Shown here: positions 3 to 53,033 of the stretch, one piece after another | Layout of the letters: the number at the start of each line of letters is the position of its first letter | How positions within the stretch are numbered: the stretch's first letter is position 1 | Assembly (NCBI RefSeq): GCF_040529335.1 | Contig: NZ_CP159534.1 | Location: 5,642,001 to 5,706,000 of the forward strand | DNA from: Streptomyces sp. HUAS MG91 | GTDB lineage: Bacteria > Actinomycetota > Actinomycetes > Streptomycetales > Streptomycetaceae | Direction: 5' to 3' | DNA length: 64,000 bases | Made by a program: the position numbers and the translations under genes | The notes under the pieces: generated by a model | What the model saw: only the letters and a program-made list of their open reading frames with translations | The model's database searches: none | Told to the model about the DNA's origin: nothing

Positions 3-710
3 GGGCGTGTCCTTGAGTGGCCGGTGGTCAGCCGCAGCGAACTCAAGGACGGGCTCTACACGTACGACGCGATCGGCCGACTGCACGACGCTCAGCTCGA
101 CCGGGGCGGTGCCGGAGCGACTTCCGAGGACATCGGCCGCTACATCAAGCTGGGGCCCCTCGGCACGGCTCTGCTCGCGGCCGACCGGCCCCGTGTGCTG
201 CTCATCGACGAGCTGGACAAGAGCGACATCGACCTGCCCAACGACCTCCTCAACGTCCTGGAGGAGGGGCGGTTCGCGATCCCGGAGCTGGAGCGCATCG
301 CCGACCATGCGCCCGAGGTCTCCGTGCTCACCGACGACGGCCGGCGGGTGGTGGTCACCGGTGGAGTGGTCCGCTGTCGCGCCTTTCCCGTCGTCGTGCT
401 GACCAGCAACCGCGAACGGGAGTTCCCCACGCCGCTGTTGCGCCGCTGCATCACGCTGGACCTGCAGTCTCCGCGCGACCAGCGACTCGCAGCGCTCGTG
501 CAGGCGCACTTCGGCGAGGGTGCCTACGAGGCGCACCACGACATCGTCGACCTGTTCACCGAGTCCGGGACGGACGGCGCGCTGCGCCCCACCGACCAGC
601 TGCTCAACGCGATCTTCCTTACCCAGTACACCGCCCGCGAGCAGACTCCCGCGCAGCGCACCGAGATCGCCGAACTGTTGATGAGGCCGCTCGACCACGA
701 GGTGCGGTGA
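3..710 (+). CDS. MoxR-type AAA+ ATPase, 3' part of gene
   Basis: This is the C-terminal part of an AAA+ ATPase of the MoxR type. The reading frame is open from the first bases of the window with no start codon, so the Walker A part lies upstream. Visible are the VLEWP segment typical of MoxR proteins, a Walker B motif VLLIDELDK at about 199-225, a sensor-1-like VLTSNRERE segment near 397-423, and a following LLRRC arginine-finger region. MoxR ATPases usually remodel client proteins together with a vWA-domain partner. The next gene starts only 3 bases after this stop codon and encodes a vWA-like protein, so the two are very likely co-translated and functionally paired. The length of the missing N-terminus cannot be judged here. 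Confidence 0.85.
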   Translation, partial: GRVLEWPVVSRSELKDGLYTYDAIGRLHDAQLDRGGAGATSEDIGRYIKLGPLGTALLAADRPRVLLIDELDKSDIDLPNDLLNVLEEGRFAIPELERIADHAPEVSVLTDDGRRVVVTGGVVRCRAFPVVVLTSNREREFPTPLLRRCITLDLQSPRDQRLAALVQAHFGEGAYEAHHDIVDLFTESGTDGALRPTDQLLNAIFLTQYTAREQTPAQRTEIAELLMRPLDHEVR

Positions 711-713
711 CCT

Positions 714-3700
714 GTGTCCGCCGCCCGCACGTCCCACGACCCCGGCGAGCAGCACCGTGCGGGCACGCTGCTCACCGCGCTCGCGGAGCGGCTGCGGGAA
801 GCGGAACTCGACCCCGGAGTAGAGGAGTTGGCCGACGCGTTATGGCTCGCTGGATATCTGGACCGCGAGGCCGGGGACAGCACCGTAGAGCCAACCGCGT
901 CACCCTCTTCGCCGTCCGCTCCGGAGCCGCCACCCGGCGCGGCGACCGGCCCTTTGCCCGAGCCCACGGGGCAGCAGACTCTCGCGTCCACCGACGAACT
1001 CGACGTGGGAGGGGGGCTGTTCGTCCCGTCGGGCGAGGCGGCGCAGCCGTCCTGGCTGCGCGCCGTTCCGGTCAGAGCGCCGTCACCGCCTGTGCTGCCC
1101 GACCCCGTGGGTCTCCAGCGCGGGCTGCGTCCCTTACAGCACTACCGGGCGCCGGTCCGACCCCCCGCCCGCATTCTCGACGAGCAAGAAACGGCCGAAC
1201 TCGCCGCCCGGTCGGGCGGGCTGGTGATCCCCGTCTTCTCCCCGCGGCGGCGCAGGGAGGCCCGCCTACTGCTGCTCATGGACCTGTCGACATCCACCGT
1301 CGTCTGGCGCGCGGCCCTCGACGAACTGCGTTACGTGTGCGAGCGCGCGGGCGCCTTTCGCGAGGTCCAGGTCCAGTACCTGTATGAGAACGAGAACGGC
1401 CGCCCCGGCACTGCTCCGGCTGTCGGCCACGTCGGCAGGCTCCGTGACCCCGCCCAGCTCACCGACCCCACAGGCCGTCAGCTCACACTGCTGCTCAGCG
1501 ACTGCGCGGGTCCCATGTGGCGCAGCGGCCGCATGCAGCAGTTGCTGCACCACTGGGCCCGCTCCGCGCCGGTGGCCGTCGTCCAGCCGCTTCCGCAGGG
1601 GATGTGGCAGCGGACGCACATGCCCGCCCGGCGCGGTGTGCTTCACCGCCGCGAAGGTCCCGCGGGCCGCCTGGAGTTCACCCCCGACCGCGGCAGTCCC
1701 GTGCCGGGCGCGCTGCCGGTTCCGGTGCTCGCGCTGCGCCGCTCCTCCGTCGAGGGCTGGGCCCGGCTGATGGCGGGGGCGACCGGGCGGGCGCTGCGAA
1801 CCGCGGCCGGATGGGTCGGTGCCGCGCACCCCGTCTCCGCGAGTCCGGTCCGCGCACGTCAAGAGGTCTCGGCGGCCGACCGGGTCCGCACATTCCTGCG
1901 CCGGGCCACGCCGCCCGCCCGCCAGCTCGCCGTCAGCCTCTCCGTCGTACCGCTGTACCTGCCGGTGATGCGGCTCGTGCAACACGCCATGCTCGCCGGG
2001 AGCGGACCTGACGTCCTGGCGGAAGTTCTGCTCAGCGGATTGCTGCGCCGGCGCGACGACGCCGTCGACCCGGAACAGGTCCGCTACGAGTTCCTGCCGG
2101 AGGTCGCCTCCGAGCTGCGCCGGCACGTCGACCCGCAGGAAGCCGAGTTACTGCTCAAGCACTGCTCGGACTACGTGGCCCGCAACTTCGGCCGCACCGC
2201 ACGCAATTTTCCGGCTCTCGCGGCCGCCTATCTGCGCGGCAAGGTCCCGGCACCGGGATCCGACGCGCCCTTGGAACCCCTGGCCGAGGGCCGCGACGAG
2301 CCGCTCGGGCTGCGGGCCTTCGCGGAGGTCTCTCTGGAGGTGCTGCGGGACCTGGCGCCGAGATTGCCGCTGCCGGTCGGGTCCGGGCCCGGTGGAGAGG
2401 CCCCCGTGGGGTACGGCGAATTGGTCGAGCGCGGGCGGGCAGCCGAGGAGACGTACGAGCTCGAGGGGAACGTACGGGAGCTGGAGCGCGCCGTCGAGCT
2501 GTATCGGGAGGCGGGACGGGCCGCGGAGGCGCGGGACGAGCAGGCCCTGGCCGCGGAGGCGTTGGGGAGGGCGCTGCGGCGGCGGGCGTTGGCCGGAGCG
2601 CCGCCGGAAGTTCTGCTGGAGGCGCTGCAGGTACTGCGCGGGGTGGCCCGGCTGTCGGCGCGGGGGCGGGCGGACCTGGGGCACGTGCTGATGCAACTGG
2701 CCATGGCCGTGGCTGGGGGACAGCTGCCGGTCTCCCGTCTGCCGAGACCGATCCCGGAGTGGGCGCGGGCACAGGCCACGGACGACCGTCCGGCCGAGGA
2801 CTGGGCCGAGACGGAATTCGTGTACCAGGCCGCCGACGAGCTGACAGCGGCGCTGGGAGCGGACCACGGGTTCGGTGACCACCTGCCGATTCTCATCGCC
2901 GGATCCCGCCGGATCCTGGCGCTGCGTCACGACTTGTCGCGCCCTGAGGGCCGATTCGAGGCCGCCCGCCCCCGGGACTGGTTCACCGGTCAACTGGAGC
3001 TCGGGCTCACGGCCTTGGAGGCGCTGCCCGAGGGCCCCGCGGCGTACAAGGAACGGGCCGCGGGGCACGGCCTGCTGGCCGAGTTCTACGACGGTCGGCG
3101 GCTGCAGGACGCCGAGCGGGACCGCGAGGATCACGAGCGTGCTCGGCGGCACGCGGATCTGGCGCGGCGGAACTTGGAGAACCTCCTGGCGGCCTCCGCC
3201 GAACAGGACGTCGAGGTCTGGCTCGGGCTCGCCACCGCGCTGGAGATCCAGGGGGAGGAGTCCGACTCCGTCGGTGAGGCGCTGGACCAGGCGCTCGCCG
3301 CGGCCGGAGACTCCAGCGCTCAGCGCTTCGAGTGTCTCGTCCGTGTCGGGCGGTTCTGGGACGCCCGGTTCGAGGAGACGGGTGAGCCGGCGGCTGCCGA
3401 CCGGGCAGTGACGGCGTGGGAGCAGGCGAGCGACTTGCTCGGGCAGGACGACGACAGACGGGCGGACACCCTCACCAACTACGGTCGGGCGCTGCTCGAC
3501 CGAGGAAGCCCGCCCGATTCTTCGAACGACGACCACCTCACCGCCGTGCGTCTCCTGAAGGACGCGGTCGCCGCGACGCCGGGCGGCCATCCCATGCTGC
3601 CGATCCGCCAGACGGTTCTGGCCCGCGCCTGCATCATGCGGTTCCAGGCCCAGGGCGTGGTCACCGACCTGCACGAGGCCGACTGGATACTCGCAGAAGC

Positions 3701-4028
3701 CTCGCGCGAGACCGACGACGACGCCGCGCTGGCGCTGGTGTGGTCCCTGCGCGCCTTCGGCACCTATCTGCTCGCTGGGCGGACCGAGAAGCGTGACCTG
3801 CTGTACCTGGCGCTGCGCCACAATGAGACGGCCCTGGAGCACGCGGCAGGCCTCGATCCGAGCATGGGCGGCACCGTGCATCGGGCCCAGGCCCGCATCC
3901 TGATCGCCCTCGACCGCCCCGCCGAAGCCGCGGCCTCCTACCGCGTAGCCCTCGCTCTCACCGAGGACCCCGAGGAACGCGCGGGCCTGGAGGCCCGCAT
4001 CGCCGATCTCGAGGCGGCCTCCGAGTGA
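714..4028 (+). CDS. vWA-like protein of the SAV_2336 type with long helical repeat tail
   Basis: A protein of 1104 residues that resembles the SAV_2336 N-terminal family of actinobacteria. At residues 190-194 it has DLSTS, which fits the MIDAS pattern DxSxS of von Willebrand A domains. A second acidic motif, LLLSDCAG, lies at 259-266 (Asp263). Residues 560-1104 are Ala, Leu and Glu rich and look like tetratricopeptide-type helical repeats (AAASYRVALAL near the end). No signal peptide or membrane segment is visible. The GTG start at 714 sits 3 bases after the ATPase stop. The 3' end overlaps the next small gene in a GTGA. I infer the vWA partner of the upstream MoxR ATPase, with the repeats as a protein-binding surface. 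The enzymatic output, if any, is unknown. Confidence 0.75.
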   Translation: MSAARTSHDPGEQHRAGTLLTALAERLREAELDPGVEELADALWLAGYLDREAGDSTVEPTASPSSPSAPEPPPGAATGPLPEPTGQQTLASTDELDVGGGLFVPSGEAAQPSWLRAVPVRAPSPPVLPDPVGLQRGLRPLQHYRAPVRPPARILDEQETAELAARSGGLVIPVFSPRRRREARLLLLMDLSTSTVVWRAALDELRYVCERAGAFREVQVQYLYENENGRPGTAPAVGHVGRLRDPAQLTDPTGRQLTLLLSDCAGPMWRSGRMQQLLHHWARSAPVAVVQPLPQGMWQRTHMPARRGVLHRREGPAGRLEFTPDRGSPVPGALPVPVLALRRSSVEGWARLMAGATGRALRTAAGWVGAAHPVSASPVRARQEVSAADRVRTFLRRATPPARQLAVSLSVVPLYLPVMRLVQHAMLAGSGPDVLAEVLLSGLLRRRDDAVDPEQVRYEFLPEVASELRRHVDPQEAELLLKHCSDYVARNFGRTARNFPALAAAYLRGKVPAPGSDAPLEPLAEGRDEPLGLRAFAEVSLEVLRDLAPRLPLPVGSGPGGEAPVGYGELVERGRAAEETYELEGNVRELERAVELYREAGRAAEARDEQALAAEALGRALRRRALAGAPPEVLLEALQVLRGVARLSARGRADLGHVLMQLAMAVAGGQLPVSRLPRPIPEWARAQATDDRPAEDWAETEFVYQAADELTAALGADHGFGDHLPILIAGSRRILALRHDLSRPEGRFEAARPRDWFTGQLELGLTALEALPEGPAAYKERAAGHGLLAEFYDGRRLQDAERDREDHERARRHADLARRNLENLLAASAEQDVEVWLGLATALEIQGEESDSVGEALDQALAAAGDSSAQRFECLVRVGRFWDARFEETGEPAAADRAVTAWEQASDLLGQDDDRRADTLTNYGRALLDRGSPPDSSNDDHLTAVRLLKDAVAATPGGHPMLPIRQTVLARACIMRFQAQGVVTDLHEADWILAEASRETDDDAALALVWSLRAFGTYLLAGRTEKRDLLYLALRHNETALEHAAGLDPSMGGTVHRAQARILIALDRPAEAAASYRVALALTEDPEERAGLEARIADLEAASE

Positions 4029-4186
4029 CGGCCACCCCGCTGCCCGTACCGGACGAAGCCCCGCTCCCCGCGTTCGGTCTCCCCGCGCGAAGCGATCACC
4101 CGGTCCTCAGTGCCGTGCTCGACGAACTGCGGCTGCGCGCCCTCGACCCCGAGCCGGTCGTGGCCCGCTACGAGGACGCGCCGTGA
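4025..4186 (+). CDS. 53-aa putative peptide substrate ending YEDAP (FxsA-like)
   Basis: A small open frame of 53 codons, GTG at 4025 to TGA at 4186. It overlaps the previous stop by GTGA (4025-4028), and its own stop overlaps the GTG start of the radical SAM gene by GTGA (4183-4186). It is rich in Pro, Ala and Leu and ends VVARYEDAP. FxsA peptides of radical SAM FxSxx-COOH systems have a similar short acidic/Leu leader and a C-terminal Phe-x-Ser-x-x. Here the equivalent positions are Tyr49 and Asp51. I infer that it is the ribosomal precursor modified by the downstream FxsB-like enzyme, with the core at Y49-E-D51. Position, coupling and size support this. The motif match is partial and no homolog search was possible. 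Confidence 0.65.
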   Translation: MTATPLPVPDEAPLPAFGLPARSDHPVLSAVLDELRLRALDPEPVVARYEDAP

Positions 4187-5433
4187 CCATGCCCGCCCGG
4201 CAGGCGGCAGGTCATCCCCGCTGGCCGCACGCTGTGCTCGACACGACGGCCCACACCCCGGTCCCGTTCCGCCAGTTCGTCCTGAAGGTGCACGGCCGGT
4301 GCAACCTGGACTGCTCGTACTGCTACGTCTACCACGCCCAGGACGACAGCTGGCGCGACCGGCCGGCCAGTGCCGACGCAGACCTGCGGCGCACGACCGC
4401 CCGCCGGATCGCCGAGCACGTCACCACCCACGGGCTGCGCCGCATACGGATCGAACTGCACGGTGGAGAGCCGCTGCTCGGCGGCCCGGGGCTCGTCCTC
4501 GCCTACGTCGACGCCGTCCGGGCCGCCGTCCCCGACTCCTGCGAGGTGCACGCCACCGTCCAGACCAACGGCACGCTCCTCACCGCTTCCGTGCTCGACC
4601 GGCTCGCGGCCTCGAAGGTGCGCGTCGGCCTCAGCCTCGACGGGGGCCGCGCCGCGCACAACGCCCGCCGCACCGACCATGCGGGCCGCCCCGCCTGGCC
4701 CGCTGCGCACGCCGCCGCACGTCGCCTCGCCCGGCGACCGGGGACCTACGCCGGAATCCTGTGCACCGTCGACCTCGCGGCCGATCCGCTCGGTGTCTAC
4801 CGCTCACTCGTGTCCCTCGGCCCACCCGGCATCGACTTCCTCCTGCCGCACGGAAACTGGGGCACTCCGCCCCCTGGCCTCGGGGTAAGCCGGCCCGCCC
4901 GGCACCGTCCCGCCCCAGCCCCGTACGGCGACTGGCTCACGACCGTCTTCGACGCATGGTGGGGCACCGAAGGCGACGAACGCGTACGGGTCCGGCTGTT
5001 CCACGAGATCCTGGCGCTCCTGCTCGGCGTCCCGAGTACCGCCGAGGCCGTCGGACTCTCGCCGATGGCCGCGGTCGTCGTGGAGACCGACGGGGCCATC
5101 GAGCAGGTCGACTCGCTCAGGTCCGCCTACGCGGGCGCCCCCGCGACCGGTCGCGACGTCTTCCGCCACACCTTCGACGACGCGCTGCGCCACCCCGGCG
5201 TCGCGGCTCGGCAGATCGGCGCCCGGGCCCTGGACGCGGTGTGCCGCGGCTGCCCCGTCGGCGCGGTCTGCGGCGGCGGCAACTATGTGCACCGCTACGC
5301 TCCCGGCTCCGGTTTCCGGCATCCCAGCGTGTATTGCGCCGATTTGGAGCGGCTCATCCGTCATGTGGCGCACGCGCTCGCGCAGCAGGTGTCCGTACCT
5401 GCATGGAAATACGGACCAACTTCCTTTGTTTGA
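4183..5433 (+). CDS. fxsB: FxsB-type radical SAM/SPASM peptide-modifying enzyme
   Basis: A 416-residue radical SAM enzyme. The [4Fe-4S] motif CxxxCxxC is at Cys40, Cys44 and Cys47 (RCNLDCSYCYVY), followed by QDDSW, as in the FxsB family. A C-terminal SPASM-type cluster is indicated by Cys354, Cys357, Cys363 and Cys385 (CRGCPVGAVCGGG). The LHGGEPLL segment fits the SAM-binding GGE motif. Known FxsB enzymes form a C-C crosslink between the aromatic residue and the residue two places on in a C-terminal FxS motif (three-residue cyclophane). The substrate here is probably the overlapping 53-residue peptide ending YEDAP. The GTG start at 4183 is fixed by translational coupling to that peptide. No HExxH hydroxylase partner is seen in the window. 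Confidence 0.85.
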   Translation: MTMPARQAAGHPRWPHAVLDTTAHTPVPFRQFVLKVHGRCNLDCSYCYVYHAQDDSWRDRPASADADLRRTTARRIAEHVTTHGLRRIRIELHGGEPLLGGPGLVLAYVDAVRAAVPDSCEVHATVQTNGTLLTASVLDRLAASKVRVGLSLDGGRAAHNARRTDHAGRPAWPAAHAAARRLARRPGTYAGILCTVDLAADPLGVYRSLVSLGPPGIDFLLPHGNWGTPPPGLGVSRPARHRPAPAPYGDWLTTVFDAWWGTEGDERVRVRLFHEILALLLGVPSTAEAVGLSPMAAVVVETDGAIEQVDSLRSAYAGAPATGRDVFRHTFDDALRHPGVAARQIGARALDAVCRGCPVGAVCGGGNYVHRYAPGSGFRHPSVYCADLERLIRHVAHALAQQVSVPAWKYGPTSFV

Positions 5434-5502
5434 ACGGTTTTTGACGCACACTTGAGTTACCTGTGCACGCACGTGACAGGTCAGGTGGAAAGGGGCAGGC
5501 GC

Positions 5503-8472
5503 ATGCAGGGCGAGTCCGCCCATGTCACGGTCGTGTTCGCCGGGCAGAGCGAGTCGTGGGCGAGATGGATCGAGCATCAGGTCAGAGCGGCCGGACGGGC
5601 CACCGCCCTGGTGCGCTGGGACCCGCTGCGTCGCCCGCCGGAGCCCGAGGCGCTCACCGACCTGCTCAGCGCTCCCGGCCGGCTGCTGCTCGTCATCGAC
5701 GACTGGTACGAGCGGCTCGGCAGCAAACGCTTCGAGGCCTGGGCCGCTGCGCTGCGCGCCGCGCTCCCGCGCTACCAGGGCCGTGTCGCCGCGGTCTCGG
5801 TCACCGAGCAGCCGCTGCCGGACGCGGTGATTCCGCTCGCCCCGGTCGCGCTGCGCGGCCTGCCGCCCGAGGTGGCCAGGAGACATGTCCTGGAGTGCGC
5901 CGACATCGGGGCTCCCGAGCGGCTCGTCGCGCTCGACCGCGGCCCGCGTTTTCCCGACTACAAGCCGACGGTGGCCAACGCGCCGCGTGCCAACCGCCGC
6001 TTCCTGGGGCGGGCCGAACTCCTCGAGCGGATCTACGACACCTTCCGTGCGGCCGGGGAGGGCATCACATCCGTCGTGTTGCACGGACCCGGCGGCATCG
6101 GCAAGACCCAGCTCGCCCAGGAGTACGCCGACCGGTTCAGCGGCGACTACGACATCATCTGGTGGATGGGTGCCACCAACCGGCTCACCGCGCGCGAGAA
6201 GTTCGCGGCCCTGGCGCCCGAGCTGGGGCTGGGCACCCACGGCGAACTCGGCGCGGACGTGCGGGCCGTGCGTCGCGCGCTCGGCTCGACCCACCGGCCC
6301 TGGCTGCTCGTCCTCGACGCGGCGGACGCCCCCGGCAAGCTGAGCGACCTCCTCCCCGAGCCGGACGGGGCCCACCGCGGCCACATGCTCATCACCTCGC
6401 TGGACACCGAGTGGGCCAAGCACGCGGAGGCCATCGCCGTCCCGCCGTTCGATCGCACCGAGTCGGTGGCATTCGCCGCGCGCCGCACCACGCGGCTCAC
6501 CGAGCACGACGCGGACCGGCTCGCCGCCGCCGTCCAGGACCTCCCGCTGTTGCTCGATCAGACCACCGCCTGGCTCGACCTCAACCCCATGGCCGACGTC
6601 CACGACTACATACGCGACATCGAGCAGGGCGAGGACCGCATAGCCGCCGTCGAGTCCTCCGACTACAAGCAGCACTACCAAGTGGTGTGGGCCAAGCTCC
6701 TCAACACGCTGCGCCAGGACTCCCCGCCCGCCTGGCAGCTGCTCAACCTCCTGGCCTGTTTCTCCCCCGAGGTCGTCCCTGTACGGCTGCTGCAGACCAC
6801 CCGCCCCGGCGAGCTGCCGCCCGCCCTCGCCGACCTGGTGAGCGAGCCCAGCAGTTGGAACTCGGCACTGCGCAAGCTCTCCGAGATCACATCCATGCGG
6901 GTCGAGTACGAGGAGGGGCCACGCGGCATTCAGGTGGTGCGCACCCTGCGCATGCACCGCCTCTTCCACCGCTACGTGCGGTCCGTGCAGGCTCCCACCG
7001 ACGCCGCCCACAACGCCGAGGTGGCCCGCCGCGTGCTCGTCTCGGCAGACCCGCGTGACACGGCGTCACCGGGCAACTGGAGCCGCTACGCCGACCTCAT
7101 CCCGCATCTCGAACCCTCCCGCGCGCTCCAGTCGCGCGACGAGGACGTGCGCGGACTCGTCCTCAACTGCATCGAGTACCTGCGGATGCGTGGTGAGCAC
7201 ACCGACGGATGGTGGCTTTCGCAGCAGGCCGTCGAAGCCTGGCGGGAGAAATACGGGCCCACGGACCGCTCCCTTCTCGTGGCCGTGCATCAACTCGCGA
7301 ACAATCTGCGCTCGTTGGGGCGCTATCCGGAAGCCGAGACCGTCGGGCGCGAAGTCCACGATCGCCTTGCCGGGGCCACCGAGGGCGTCCGCCCCATCGA
7401 GCTGATCCGCGCGAAGGACGGGCTCGGCGGCACCCTGATGGCGCTCGCCCGCTTCGACGAGGCGCGCGCTCTGTTCGAGGACGCCGCGGCCCGGGCGACC
7501 GCCGAACTCGGTGGCGAGGGCGTGCCGCGCACTCTGTCCATCCGCAGCAACCTCGCCGTCGCGATAGGCCTCCAGGGCCATTACACGCAGGCGTACGCGA
7601 TGCACCGGAAGATCTACGAGACACGGGTGCGGCTGCTGGGGGACAAGAGCGCTCTGACGCTCAACTCCGCTCTGCGTACCGCCTGGATGCTGCGCCTCCT
7701 CGGCCAGTACCGGGACGCCCTCGTCATCCAGGGCCACAACTCACGGCTGCACCGCCAGGTCTTGGACCGGACGCACAGCCAGACCCTGGAGGCCGAGCAC
7801 AATTACGCGCTGTGCGCCCGGCGTGAGGGCGATCTGATGTTCGCCCGAACGTTGATGCGTGCGGTCCACAAGAAAATCGTCGGCCGGCGCGGCGAACTCC
7901 ACCCCGAGTCGCTCCTCGTCTCCTGCGACTACGCGATGCTGCTGCGCGAGATCGGCCAGACGCAGGAGGCGTTGGAGCTTGCCGAGGCTACCGCGGAGCG
8001 TTACGCGGACCTGTACGGCGAGAGCCACCCCTATGCCATCGGGTGCCGGGACAACGTGGCGACGGTGCTGCGTCAGCGCGGCGATCTCGGGGCCGCGTGC
8101 CGCATGTCCGAGGAGACGGCGCGGGAGATGACGCGTGCCGTGGGCGCCACACACCCGTGGGCTGTGGGCTGCGCGAAGAATGCCATGACGGCGTTGGCCG
8201 CTACGGGGCAGTACGAGGCGGCCGGGCGGACCGGCCGTGCGGCGCTCGCATCGGCGGCCGTGACCCTCGGCGAGAGCCACGTGCTGACCATCAGCTTGCG
8301 CGTGGGCCTGTCCGGGACGTTGCGGGAAGTGGGCGAGGAAGCGGAGGCAAACGAGCTCTACCGCCAGGCCGCCGACCGGCTCGTCCAACTGCTCGGCCCC
8401 GACCACCAGCAGTCCCGCTACATCCTCGAACAACGTCTGCCCTACTGGGATTTCGAGCCCCAGCCCATCTGA
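5503..8472 (+). CDS. fxsT: FxsT-like TIR-like/NB-ARC/TPR protein
   Basis: A STAND-class regulator of 989 residues. Residues 1-130 have an alternating alpha/beta pattern starting HVTVVFAGQSESW that looks TIR- or SEFIR-like. The NB-ARC ATPase domain has a P-loop GPGGIGKTQ with Lys201 and a Walker B segment WLLVLDAAD. From about residue 520 to the end there are TPR repeats with the family pattern of paired GESHP segments. Such proteins are recurrent partners of FxsA/FxsB genes. I chose the ATG at 5503 because AAAGGGGC lies just upstream. A TTG at 5452 in frame would give a longer N-terminus. The gene begins 69 bases after fxsB, so it may be co-transcribed or have its own promoter. Its likely job is sensing and signalling in the cluster, which is inference. 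Confidence 0.8.
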   Translation: MQGESAHVTVVFAGQSESWARWIEHQVRAAGRATALVRWDPLRRPPEPEALTDLLSAPGRLLLVIDDWYERLGSKRFEAWAAALRAALPRYQGRVAAVSVTEQPLPDAVIPLAPVALRGLPPEVARRHVLECADIGAPERLVALDRGPRFPDYKPTVANAPRANRRFLGRAELLERIYDTFRAAGEGITSVVLHGPGGIGKTQLAQEYADRFSGDYDIIWWMGATNRLTAREKFAALAPELGLGTHGELGADVRAVRRALGSTHRPWLLVLDAADAPGKLSDLLPEPDGAHRGHMLITSLDTEWAKHAEAIAVPPFDRTESVAFAARRTTRLTEHDADRLAAAVQDLPLLLDQTTAWLDLNPMADVHDYIRDIEQGEDRIAAVESSDYKQHYQVVWAKLLNTLRQDSPPAWQLLNLLACFSPEVVPVRLLQTTRPGELPPALADLVSEPSSWNSALRKLSEITSMRVEYEEGPRGIQVVRTLRMHRLFHRYVRSVQAPTDAAHNAEVARRVLVSADPRDTASPGNWSRYADLIPHLEPSRALQSRDEDVRGLVLNCIEYLRMRGEHTDGWWLSQQAVEAWREKYGPTDRSLLVAVHQLANNLRSLGRYPEAETVGREVHDRLAGATEGVRPIELIRAKDGLGGTLMALARFDEARALFEDAAARATAELGGEGVPRTLSIRSNLAVAIGLQGHYTQAYAMHRKIYETRVRLLGDKSALTLNSALRTAWMLRLLGQYRDALVIQGHNSRLHRQVLDRTHSQTLEAEHNYALCARREGDLMFARTLMRAVHKKIVGRRGELHPESLLVSCDYAMLLREIGQTQEALELAEATAERYADLYGESHPYAIGCRDNVATVLRQRGDLGAACRMSEETAREMTRAVGATHPWAVGCAKNAMTALAATGQYEAAGRTGRAALASAAVTLGESHVLTISLRVGLSGTLREVGEEAEANELYRQAADRLVQLLGPDHQQSRYILEQRLPYWDFEPQPI

Positions 8473-49621: not shown

Positions 49622-50038
49622 TTAGACCTTGATGACGGTGATGCGGGGGCCGCACAGGGCGGTCAGATCCTCGGGGTCTGAAGTCAGAACCGTCGCCGGG
49701 CCTGGGGCGGCGAGGGCGGTGGCGCCGAGCATGGCGTCGATGGCGTGTTTGTGACCGTGCAGGCCGGCGTTGGCGAGGAGGGTGCCGGCATGACGGGCGA
49801 TGTGCTCGGTGATCGGTTCGATGACGAGGCGGGAGAGGGTCCACTCCAGGGCCGGGCGGTTGATCCGAGGGTGCACCACTTCCACAAGGATGGCCGCGGA
49901 AGTGATCACCCGTAGGTCATCGGCGCGAGCGAGAGCGAGCCAGCCGGTGACAGTGCGGTCGCGAAGGATGGCCTTGGCCAGCCCTTCGCTGTCGAGGACC
50001 AGAGTGCCGCCGGGGGTAGCTGCGGAGGAGCGGGTCAC
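49622..50038 (-). CDS. PIN-domain toxin (VapC-like)
   Basis: A 138-residue PIN-domain protein, a likely RNase toxin. The acidic residues expected for the metal site are seen in TLVLDSEGL, LVEVVHPR, HAIDAMLGATAL and LTSDPEDL. The start overlaps the antitoxin stop by four bases (50035-50038), the usual antitoxin-toxin order. VapC toxins cut tRNA or rRNA when the antitoxin is lost. It is a stabilising or abortive module within the tRNA-Arg element. Confidence 0.82.
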   Translation of the reverse strand: MTRSSAATPGGTLVLDSEGLAKAILRDRTVTGWLALARADDLRVITSAAILVEVVHPRINRPALEWTLSRLVIEPITEHIARHAGTLLANAGLHGHKHAIDAMLGATALAAPGPATVLTSDPEDLTALCGPRITVIKV

Positions 50039-50298
50039 GCGGCGTTCGCCCCACCTTGCGTTTGCTGCTGGCGGGCCTGGTGGAGATGGTCACGTAGGGC
50101 CTGGACCTCTTCGTCCATGATGGGCCCGTGCTCGGCCTCGGCGACCTGAATGAGTTCGTTGAGATTGTCCCGCTCGATCTGGCGTGCGACGGCAGCGGCG
50201 ACATAGGCCGACAGCCCCGATGGGCCGCTGCGGGCTTTGGCGGCTTCGGCGATGTCGCGGGGCATGGTGATTGAGTACTTGCCGGTAGGGTCACTCAT
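50035..50298 (-). CDS. Antitoxin, ribbon-helix-helix type (VapB-like)
   Basis: An 87-residue protein that begins SDPTGKYSITMPRDIAEAAK, a pattern of ribbon-helix-helix DNA-binding antitoxins, followed by a helical toxin-binding region with EHGPIMDEEVQALRDHL. It directly precedes and overlaps the PIN toxin gene. The ATG at 50298 is chosen with AGGATTGG upstream. Autoregulation by the complex is expected. A longer frame upstream has Arg-rich non-conserved residues. Confidence 0.8.
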   Translation of the reverse strand: MSDPTGKYSITMPRDIAEAAKARSGPSGLSAYVAAAVARQIERDNLNELIQVAEAEHGPIMDEEVQALRDHLHQARQQQTQGGANAA

Positions 50299-50417
50299 GC
50301 TACCAATCCTACCTCTTATCCTCCTCGCGGTCGGTGGCTGGCGCAGATCGACCGCATGCCGGTGCACCAGGGATGCGCTGAGAGGAGCCTGGGTGGCGAT
50401 ATCGGCTGGCCCTAGAG

Positions 50418-53033
50418 CTAACTGGGTCGGCCGCTCAGCATTTCACGTAGTGCCGCCTTCATCTCTCGTTCGCTTTCTTTCAGTCCAATTCTGCGAAAGA
50501 TTCGAATGGCTTCCTCGTAGTAGATCTTTGCTTGGTCAGTGTCTCCCGACATCCACTCCGCAGCCCCTAGCAAGCCGAGTGAATTAGCCTCGAAATGATG
50601 ATTTGAGGTGCTCTGGAAAAATCGGAGTGCTCGATGTAGGGAGCCTCGCGCTTCCTTGATCTTTCCGGATTTTAGTTGTGTGTGAGCCAAGTTCATATGG
50701 TTGAGATGGATTCCCGCTTCATCCTGCACTTCTCTGTATGCGGTAAATGCCTTCTGGAAACACTCTTCGGATTTCTCTTGCTGGCCCAGCTGGCTAAGGG
50801 CTACCCCCAGCCCGGCGTGGGCAGATGCTTCCTGCCTCCGGTTTCCCGAGGCGCGATGGTATGGGAGGGATGCGCTGAGAGCTGCCGCTGCTGGGTGCAA
50901 GAGACCGGATTCGCGGTATGCGGAGCCAAGGTTGGTTAGAGATGCTCCGATATCGTTTGGGTCTCGATTCTCTCTTGACAGTTTCACGGCTTCGATCAAG
51001 ATTGGGATAGCTGCTCTAGGGCTGATGTGCTGGCGAACCGCCGCGCCTAGGCTGACTGTTGCGTCGCATTGGCCATCCAGGAAGCCGATTCTTTCTGCAG
51101 TGGCGGCTGCCTTTTTGAGGGTTCGAATGGCCTCTTCCATCCTGCCCTGGGAGGTGAGGTTGATTCCGATGTTATTGAGAGCTCTAACCTGCCGTTCGGT
51201 GTCACGCTCTTTGCATGCCGCCTCGTAGGCGATTTGCGCCGACTGAAGGCCTTCGGTGACGCGCCCCCTAAGGTCGAGATAGAGGATGAGGTGCATCGAA
51301 ATGGCGTAAGTCTGTTCGGTTAGATCGATGTCGCGAGCGGCCCGCGCTGAAGCCTGCAGATTTGCGCACTCTAGGTCAAGCCAGTTCAGGGCTTCGGTAG
51401 TCGACTGGAACTGTGGCGGATTCCCTTCAGGGGTGCCGCGCAGCGTGAGGTCTGCATTTAGTGAAGCCTGGCAATATACCTCGGTTAGGCGACTGAAGGC
51501 TTGTTGGCGATCACTGGCAGAGACCGTTGTTTCACATTGCTCAGCAGCGAATAGATAGACAAGATCATGCATCCGCCATCGCGAGGTGGCGGACCCGCGG
51601 GAGATGAGGCTGGCCTGACTGAGCCGGCGGAGGAGCGAGCGAGTCTGTGGGACAGATACTCCGAGGACTGCCGAGGCTGCCTGTTCCGACATCTCGCTGC
51701 CCGGATGGATGGAGAGTCGGCAAAAGGGATCCCTCATGGCACGGTCGAGGCGAGCGAGCGAGACCTGAAGGGCTGCCCTTACGGCGGTGTCCCCAAAGTG
51801 CAGGACATCGAGCCGGCTCTTCTCTTCACTCAGTTCTGCCAGTAGATCGTCGATCGTGAGGCCGACGTCGTCTTTCAGGATTGCTGCCGAGATGCTTAGC
51901 GCCAGCGGAAGATGGCCACACAGGGTGCACAGATCACGGATCGGGCCGGAGGTGTGGAGACGCTGATCCCCAGGCCCCAAGATCTGAGTGAGCAGGACGC
52001 CTGACTCCTCCGGGCTGAGACAGTCGAGGTTGATCGTCTCGATTCCTTCGAGCACTCCCAACCTGCTACGAGAGGTCAGTACCACGCCATGGGCCTCTGC
52101 CCTGGGGAGCAATTCGGCGACCTGAGAGAGCTCGGCTACGTTGTCGAACACCATCAACACCGGGTTGCCAGAGGCGTCGAGGGCGTCGAGCGTTCGGTGG
52201 TAGAGCGCAGCCTGGCCTTCTGTGGTGCGTGGGATCTCATTCCCTGCTACGCCGAGAACTGACAGGAGAGGTCCGTACGCGATTCCGGGGCTGGCCATGC
52301 GTGTGCGATGCGCCGAGAAACCGTGCATGTCTGTGACGATCACGCCGCCAGAGAACACTGCGGACACGTCGTGGTGCCTGACCACTTGGTCTACCAAGGA
52401 TGTCTTGCCGACGCCGGCCATCCCTGAGACCAGGACTCGACCTCCCATGGTGGTCAGCATGTTCCTGATCGCCTGTTGCTCCTGCTCCCGGCCTACGAAG
52501 CGGGGCGAGGTGCTGGAGGTTTCTGTCAGTCGAGTGACGTGCAGTGATGCCTCTTCGATGCGTCTTTGTGAACGATCCTCAACGAACTTATGCGTCAGTG
52601 CCAGGAACGACTGGATGGTGTCCTCGTTCAGTTCCTGTTCCCGCGGCACGGTGATCCAGCTGGGCGCCTCCTCGGAGGACTCCAGGCACTCCGTGAGGTT
52701 CGCCCAGAACAGCTGCTTCGTTGCCAGGTCGAACACCACACCTAGGACGGACAGTAGGCCGTTCTTCCAGTCGTTCGCATGACCCTCGACAGGGATTGCG
52801 TAACTATGAGCCCGCTTGTACTTATTGCCGCTCTTCACCTGGATGGTGATCGCGACACCAGTTCGCTCACCGTCCTTGGTGAGCATGACGAAGAGGTCTT
52901 CCCCGTAGTCGTTGCCGCCGTCGATCTCTTGGACGATCTGATCGTGGTCTTCGAGGAGCGTGCGTAGAGCGTTTACCCCCGCCCGCTCGATCCTTCTGCT
53001 CTTGGTGACCCTTTCCGGCACCGCTTCCCCCAA
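50418..53033 (-). CDS. DUF4365 nuclease-like/NB-ARC/TPR STAND protein, defence candidate
   Basis: An 871-residue protein with three parts. Residues about 10-160 match DUF4365, a predicted PD-(D/E)xK nuclease: Asp42-Y-G-Glu45-Asp46 and then Gln65-V-Lys67 in the IQVKSGN strand. The NB-ARC NTPase has a P-loop GMAGVGKT (204-211, Lys210) and Walker B VLMVFDNV (Asp297). TPR repeats cover about 545-860 with paired helices (ALNNIGINLTSQGR, SLTNLGSAYRESG). Nuclease-STAND-repeat architecture is that of Avs-type anti-phage proteins, where target binding to the repeats activates a DNase. The gene has visibly lower GC than the flanks and lies in the tRNA element, which supports transfer. Substrate and trigger are inferred only. 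Confidence 0.8.
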   Translation of the reverse strand: MGEAVPERVTKSRRIERAGVNALRTLLEDHDQIVQEIDGGNDYGEDLFVMLTKDGERTGVAITIQVKSGNKYKRAHSYAIPVEGHANDWKNGLLSVLGVVFDLATKQLFWANLTECLESSEEAPSWITVPREQELNEDTIQSFLALTHKFVEDRSQRRIEEASLHVTRLTETSSTSPRFVGREQEQQAIRNMLTTMGGRVLVSGMAGVGKTSLVDQVVRHHDVSAVFSGGVIVTDMHGFSAHRTRMASPGIAYGPLLSVLGVAGNEIPRTTEGQAALYHRTLDALDASGNPVLMVFDNVAELSQVAELLPRAEAHGVVLTSRSRLGVLEGIETINLDCLSPEESGVLLTQILGPGDQRLHTSGPIRDLCTLCGHLPLALSISAAILKDDVGLTIDDLLAELSEEKSRLDVLHFGDTAVRAALQVSLARLDRAMRDPFCRLSIHPGSEMSEQAASAVLGVSVPQTRSLLRRLSQASLISRGSATSRWRMHDLVYLFAAEQCETTVSASDRQQAFSRLTEVYCQASLNADLTLRGTPEGNPPQFQSTTEALNWLDLECANLQASARAARDIDLTEQTYAISMHLILYLDLRGRVTEGLQSAQIAYEAACKERDTERQVRALNNIGINLTSQGRMEEAIRTLKKAAATAERIGFLDGQCDATVSLGAAVRQHISPRAAIPILIEAVKLSRENRDPNDIGASLTNLGSAYRESGLLHPAAAALSASLPYHRASGNRRQEASAHAGLGVALSQLGQQEKSEECFQKAFTAYREVQDEAGIHLNHMNLAHTQLKSGKIKEARGSLHRALRFFQSTSNHHFEANSLGLLGAAEWMSGDTDQAKIYYEEAIRIFRRIGLKESEREMKAALREMLSGRPS

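Follow-up and report, generated by a model that had tools for sequence, protein, structure and literature searches.

One of the questions raised by this locus concerns what is encoded in the short space between the gene for a vWA protein and that for a radical SAM enzyme. Is the small frame found there a real gene, and what would the neighbouring enzyme do to its product? The window, by which is meant the whole stretch of 64,000 nucleotides that was analysed (C1:5642001-5706000 of the 8.6 Mb genome of Streptomyces sp. HUAS MG91), contains at 4025..4186 (+) a frame that starts with GTG, stops with TGA and is translated as MTATPLPVPDEAPLPAFGLPARSDHPVLSAVLDELRLRALDPEPVVARYEDAP. It is read here as a YxD-tail RiPP precursor gene of 53 aa, with a leader of about residues 1-47 and a putative core of Y49-E50-D51-A52-P53. 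The best explanation of the whole is very probably that of a triceptide-type precursor, whose last five residues would be ring-stapled by the adjoining enzyme.

The short frame and the conservation of its tail

The initial annotation had described a GTG-to-TGA frame, tied by four-base overlaps to the genes on either side and ending in VVARYEDAP, and the sequence bears this out. The first GTGA (4025..4028, +) connects the stop codon of the vWA gene (TGA, 4026-4028) with the start of the peptide, and the second (4183..4186, +) connects the stop codon of the peptide with the GTG start of the radical SAM gene (4183-4185), each overlap being 4 bases long. Translation gives the VVARYEDAP end, with the core encoded by TAC GAG GAC GCG CCG (4169..4183, +). 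The overlaps were set aside as sole proof of a gene, because xTGA is found at both ends in 10 of the 147 window ORFs of 40-80 aa, making such ends common by chance and weak as evidence. A YxD within the last six residues is found in one of these 147 ORFs, which is the frame 4025-4186 itself. It is conservation, rather than the overlaps, that decides the reality of the 53-codon gene.

Related loci were taken as the best 80 of 141, from one genome per species across 84,980 species, a set that leans to close relatives. Twenty of these 80 (L038-L057), together with the window, form 21 rows in which YEDAP is encoded and runs into [AG]TGA at the enzyme start, such that the expected conservation of the YxD tail in the equivalent space of homologous clusters holds in the 20 closest related clusters. 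At the other end, 20 of the 21 rows have an open frame whose GTG (18) or TTG (2) start sits on the TGA that closes the long upstream frame, giving GTGA or TTGA; the exception is the draft contig L038, which has an in-frame stop and where the start is absent from the peptide frame. The neighbourhood is also retained, as tblastn matched the vWA protein in 20 of the 21 rows, the short contig L051 being the one row with no such match; MoxR was matched in 18 rows and the TIR gene in all 21.

Could the tail be conserved as a translational element, in which GAGGA, lying in the Glu-Asp codons, provides the radical SAM gene with its ribosome site, while the frame does no more than couple translation and its peptide is not a substrate? 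GAGGA does lie 6 bases ahead of GTG 4183 in the window and the stop/start overlap occurs in 21/21 YEDAP rows, yet the Glu codon is GAG in 10/21 rows and GAA in 11/21, and since GAA breaks GAGGA while keeping Glu, it is the protein and not the ribosome site that is conserved. Tyr, Ala and Pro of the tail are likewise kept through synonymous changes. Across the last five codons pN is 0 and pS 0.55 (20 sequences; changes synonymous only), the Pro codon being constrained at its third position by the start codon of the enzyme as well; for the leader pN/pS is 0.64 (20 sequences, with L049 and L052 entered as 23 aa from an internal GTG). Moreover, four loci without the overlap (L058, L061, L062 and L090) still end in YEDSP, and the leader retains HPVL and matches FxSxx leaders. 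A purely translational role is thus extremely improbable, and the reading of a conserved precursor is kept in what follows.

A known peptide family

The 53-aa gene is a real, unnamed member of an already known peptide family. Against NF041709 ('YxD-tail cyclophane-containing RiPP peptide', NCBIfam) the window peptide scores 40.3 bits (E 2e-10), which falls short of the curated cut-off of 55, whilst the conserved Tyr-x-Asp near the C terminus that marks the family is present in the window and in the 20 related loci. On its own genome the profile finds the peptide at E 7.5e-9, the next best match being 0.33, and all 20 peptides of the YEDAP alignment A1 match it at E <= 0.01. TIGR04268 (FxSxx-COOH peptide) gives no match to the window peptide at E <= 10, and reaches E <= 0.01 in 2/20 of the A1 peptides (best 0.0024). 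When the YEDAP leaders are compared with FxSxx leaders by hhalign an E of 9.5e-9 is obtained, carried by the HPVL segment, and the geometry of Y-E-D-A-P is that of F-x-[S/N]-x-x-COOH, with the aromatic at -5 and its partner at -3. The proposal of a YxD variant of the FxSxx substrate therefore retains its footing in the FxsB-family neighbour, the shared geometry and the conserved tail, but not its newness, as NF041709 and YxdB are already recorded.

NF041709/YxdB triceptides resemble the window in having Tyr-x-Asp at the C-terminal end and an adjoining gene for a cyclophane-forming radical SAM enzyme. Among the loci above the NF041709 cut-off (L009-L023), 10/15 have weak vWA-protein matches upstream and 10/15 read YY[ED]DGP plus an extension, in distinction to the below-cut-off window peptide; two (L020 and L022) end in YYEDAP, sharing the YEDAP ending of the window.

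How widely is the peptide spread? Searching 5.8 billion proteins with the sequence by itself returned, apart from the protein of the window, one relative only. An alignment-based search gave 70 public relatives among 7987 candidates scored, 62 of which end exactly in YEDAP; by eye, the remaining 8 comprise seven with Y-x-D-[AS]-P and one with Y-F-G-D-S-P, each then followed by an extension. An 18-base pattern covering YEDAP and the overlap has 21 matches in 392 Streptomyces genomes and none in the backward control. Twenty of the 21 coincide with NF041709 profile matches and 19/21 open an enzyme frame with HGGEP; L143 carries a frame of 73 codons, and L145 is a chance match. The profile itself, at E <= 0.001, matches in 120/392 of these genomes (15 over cut-off), with many of the matches ending before the tail and belonging to FxSxx-type peptides, and in a phylum-wide sample it matches at E <= 1e-6 in 6/396 genomes and 1/236 genera, some matches again being short of the tail. 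The expectation that gene callers would miss so small a gene proved only partly right, since gene callers do pick up relatives, although all the NCBI names shown read 'hypothetical protein'; an identity is now supplied for a gene so listed in databases.

Some further arrangements were seen. The peptides of L058, L061, L062 and L090 end in YYEDSP beside FxsB enzymes, and there a vWA tblastn match is absent, which places the YxD module in another genomic setting. In L072 tandem cores, AYFSDAP and AYFADTP, lie in one peptide upstream of the enzyme, suggestive of a two-ring FxD precursor. A plasmid search yielded 19 records.

The enzyme, its predicted chemistry and a candidate signature

The downstream gene (4183..5433, +) encodes a 416 aa, putatively cyclophane-forming radical SAM/SPASM maturase, whose claimed FxsB-type identity is upheld by a TIGR04269 score of 412 bits over a cut-off of 370. 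Its motifs include CX3CX2C at 40-47, SPASM cysteines at 354/357/363/385 and R89-x-E91-L-HGGEP, and the cysteines expected of an FxsB maturase (40, 44, 47, 354, 357, 363 and 385) are present in 81/81 enzymes (window plus best 80 of 141). Assignment as a YhhB maturase (NF041707) was rejected at 313 bits versus a cut-off of 445, and a weak PADLOC match to pVip (viperin) was read as general fold similarity. ChlB, part of a fusion with an HExxH beta-hydroxylase and termed a multiple cyclophane synthase in the portion of PMC12636437 drawn on here, provides the best match in both sequence (240 bits) and structure, with 35% identity in the structural alignment. An AlphaFold model built with 40 sequences (pLDDT 90.3) has as its best PDB matches ChlB 9gm3/9gmc (TM 0.86 by query and 0.95 by target, 1.7 A), which are titled, respectively, as a complex with the leader region and a complex with the R3A mutant of ChlA. 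By relatedness, the enzyme stands nearest to proteins from Streptomyces.

In the proposed mechanism the leader (PLP...DHPVLxAVLxELRxR) would dock on the adjoining FxsB-family enzyme and the 5'-deoxyadenosyl radical would take the beta hydrogen of Asp51. Abstraction of an Asp C-beta hydrogen is the outcome expected from established radical SAM chemistry. The C-beta of Asp51 would then be joined to ring carbon C3 of Tyr49, generating a three-residue cyclophane, minus 2 Da, at YEDAP-COOH. A Tyr49-Asp51 ring is to be expected of the window enzyme because of its homology to enzymes of the YxdB/MscB type; in the parts of PMC11002830 used here, YxdB is reported to link C3(Tyr) with Cb(Asp) (citing Sugiyama et al. 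2022), and MscB to link C4(Phe) with Cb(Ser). The two 4-base overlaps would, through translational coupling, keep precursor and enzyme together. The bond and the docking, like the role considered below, are what we infer from a gene, its conservation, its families, its operon and a missing hydroxylase gene, all of which are read from the sequence.

Might the enzyme instead modify the peptide at some other site, or act on a different protein encoded in the operon, with YEDAP kept for binding? The position and spacing of YEDAP agree with those of the FxS/YxD motifs known from characterised enzymes of the family, and enzyme residues 89 and 91 vary together with the tail, both of which make this very improbable and favour a ring at YEDAP.

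This covariation came from a scan of the 416 enzyme positions, in which residue 91 separates the tail groups. For an enlarged set, 29 peptide-profile loci (L009-L037, spanning about 1.5 kb each side of the peptide) were added and 5 near-duplicates removed, giving 105 enzymes, with 85 tails assigned by eye. Where Asp stands at i+2, R89 is accompanied by E/D91 (R-x-[ED]-L before HGGEP) in 44/46 enzymes, the other 2 having H/Q with N. Where Asn or Ser stands at i+2, residue 91 is V/I/T in 30/32; the 2 exceptions with R-E, L028 and L092, are both FxN and nested in the YxD clade. V/I/T at 91 is found in all 7 rows with other tails and in all 20 unassigned rows, and ChlB aligns Ala and Val with R89 and E91. 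In F-x-N/S enzymes the pair at 89 and 91 is A/S with V. Within the added loci alone (25 after duplicates removed), E, D or N occurs in 19/19 Asp tails and V in 3/3 FDS tails, with the FxN tails split as 2 V and 1 E. The signature follows Asp rather than Tyr, for L072 (FSD) has R-D and L074 (YNS) has A-V. L028, L030, L032, L059 and L092 form an FxN (AYF[ED]N) subclade within the YxD lineage, 3/5 of them with H/S-V at 89/91.

In a tree of 81 enzymes (window plus best 80 of 141), rooted by midpoint only, the YxD lineage of 29 rows forms one group (SH-aLRT 93), within which a YEDAP group is nested (85). The minimum number of changes on this tree is 2 for the tail and 3 for residue 91, and independent pairs of residue 91 against tail provide one contrast on supported branches and two on all branches, a number at which significance is unreachable. 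The correlation of residues 89/91 with the tail is thus a lead, with one or two independent changes behind it. In the AlphaFold model a strand is made up of residues 87-92, and because 88, 90 and 92 are hydrophobic, residues 89 and 91 would be expected to point into the lumen of the barrel. An R-x-[ED] before HGGEP may let annotation predict the residue that an FxsB enzyme accepts.

A defence-like operon and its missing hydroxylase gene

The gene order is VMAP, MoxR, vWA, peptide, enzyme and TIR/NB-ARC/TPR, with VMAP and MoxR starting upstream of the window. VMAP (PF20028, 131 bits) has a Trypsin_2 domain with GVSGGP. The MoxR-type AAA ATPase (AAA_5, 34 bits) is seen in its C-terminal part at 24..710 (+), the gene start lying before the window (L118 9700). 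The vWA protein (714..4028, +) has a SAV_2336 N-terminal domain (SAV_2336_NTERM, 426 bits), a DLSTS MIDAS-like motif at residue 190 and weak C-terminal TPR matches, VWA_CoxE being below cut-off. The TIR/NB-ARC/TPR protein (5452..8472, +; likely start ATG 5503) is an FxSxx-system TPR protein, at 739.5 bits to NF040586 (cut-off 300). The three genes of the VMAP-MoxR-vWA ternary system are found together, and the operon is such a system plus a TIR/NB-ARC/TPR protein, defence-like in character. PADLOC left the vWA and TIR genes unmatched, and its weak matches to the VMAP and AAA genes were read as general fold similarity.

The FxSxx-type layout of VMAP-MoxR-vWA systems in PMC7159879 has, as here, a trypsin-domain VMAP, MoxR, vWA, radical SAM and a separate TIR-AP-ATPase-TPR. 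In the passages of that paper used here the peptide types are FxSxx, RxD, acidic and FtsH-associated, with YxD not named among them, and the peptide part is centred on a zincin-like gene, whereas the window operon is without an HExxH gene. FxSxx-COOH (TIGR04268)/FxsB systems share with the window the enzyme family, the leader HPVL, the aromatic-x-partner-x-x-COOH arrangement and the operon type; they differ in pairing Phe with Ser/Asn, where the window pairs Tyr with Asp, lacks the HExxH beta-hydroxylase gene and has no TIGR04268 match. The HExxH gene is called a metallopeptidase in the same passages of PMC7159879, and the family is treated as alpha-ketoglutarate-dependent hydroxylases in those of the more recent PMC12636437 and likewise by NCBIfam.

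Is the hydroxylase gene absent throughout the lineage? With the L081 copy as query (TIGR04267, 165.5 bits), tblastn over the window and the best 80 of 141 loci found the HExxH gene in 50/80 loci, namely 32 rows beside the YxD lineage and 18/20 rows of a deeper actinomycete branch. In the 32/50 of these with a readable tail, Asp at the ring position is found in none (15 FxN, 8 FxS and 9 others, among them a WxN and a YxS). The same search did not find the gene in the 21 YEDAP rows, the window included, in 5 YEDSP rows, in the nested FxN/FxD rows L059, L092 and L072, or in L104 and L103, the latter on a contig that stops some 0.25 kb downstream. Since FxN/FxD rows nested in the YxD lineage are also without it, its absence tracks the lineage and not strictly YxD. 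Between enzyme and TIR gene there are 11-178 bases in the YEDAP rows (tblastn ends), and in the window 22 bases separate the radical SAM stop codon region from the longest TIR ORF.

An alternative is that the Tyr-Asp peptide is modified further, for example by Asp beta-hydroxylation, or is cut by the trypsin-like domain of VMAP, with the cyclophane as an intermediate. The genome does carry one TIGR04267 gene (7.22 Mb, 175.7 bits) and the upstream VMAP gene has the Trypsin_2 domain, but the HExxH gene belongs to a separate STAND/TPR-like locus 1.57 Mb from the peptide, and the tree is most simply read as one loss in the ancestor of the YxD lineage. Nor is a cleavage site evident, because the residue preceding the core Tyr is H in 12 rows, Y in 4, R in 3, Q in 1 and D in 1, and no conserved site before the core was seen across the 21 YEDAP rows. 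Such further processing is rather unlikely. With no HExxH gene in the operon, unlike most of the F-x-[S/N] systems seen, the cross-link would probably be the sole tailoring encoded there.

The cross-linked product could act as an internal signal, or as a ligand, for the VMAP-MoxR-vWA and TIR/NB-ARC/TPR proteins that its own operon encodes, the role as a signal being favoured with low confidence. In SARM1-like NADases a Glu follows Trp in the TIR domain. At that place Glu is absent from the window TIR domain (5503-5900) and from the rows inspected of both tail types, so that the domain may be inactive as an NADase.

The locus offers a natural pair in otherwise similar operons, F-x-S/N with the hydroxylase versus Y-x-D without it, which makes ring chemistry and the role of the hydroxylase separable. 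A fuller scenario, tentative and as a whole somewhat doubtful, would have an Fxs lineage lose the beta-hydroxylase, shift from Phe-x-Ser/Asn to Tyr-x-Asp and gain an Arg-x-Glu/Asp substrate switch in strand 2 before HGGEP (Arg reading the Asp carboxylate and the acid holding Arg), with the cyclophane read by the operon's NLR-like TIR protein. The below-cut-off subfamily, the hydroxylase absence and the candidate specificity pair may be new, no statement of them having been found in the parts of the open-access literature covered by a search that was not aimed at the enzyme signature.

Two other regions bear mention. The distant HExxH locus (L120, C1:7213000-7227000; 6157-7905) looks STAND/TPR-like and has, by eye, a caspase-like neighbour to the HExxH gene; immediately upstream of that gene is a short frame with the end ...IAGSNPSGRAE, which may be its peptide. 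In the window itself, an 871-aa protein at 50418-53033 (-), by eye DUF4365-like/NB-ARC/TPR, is found where GC is low (59% at 50001-52000) and adjoins a small gene pair, VapBC-like by eye, at 49622-50294; this stretch is possibly an acquired defence island.
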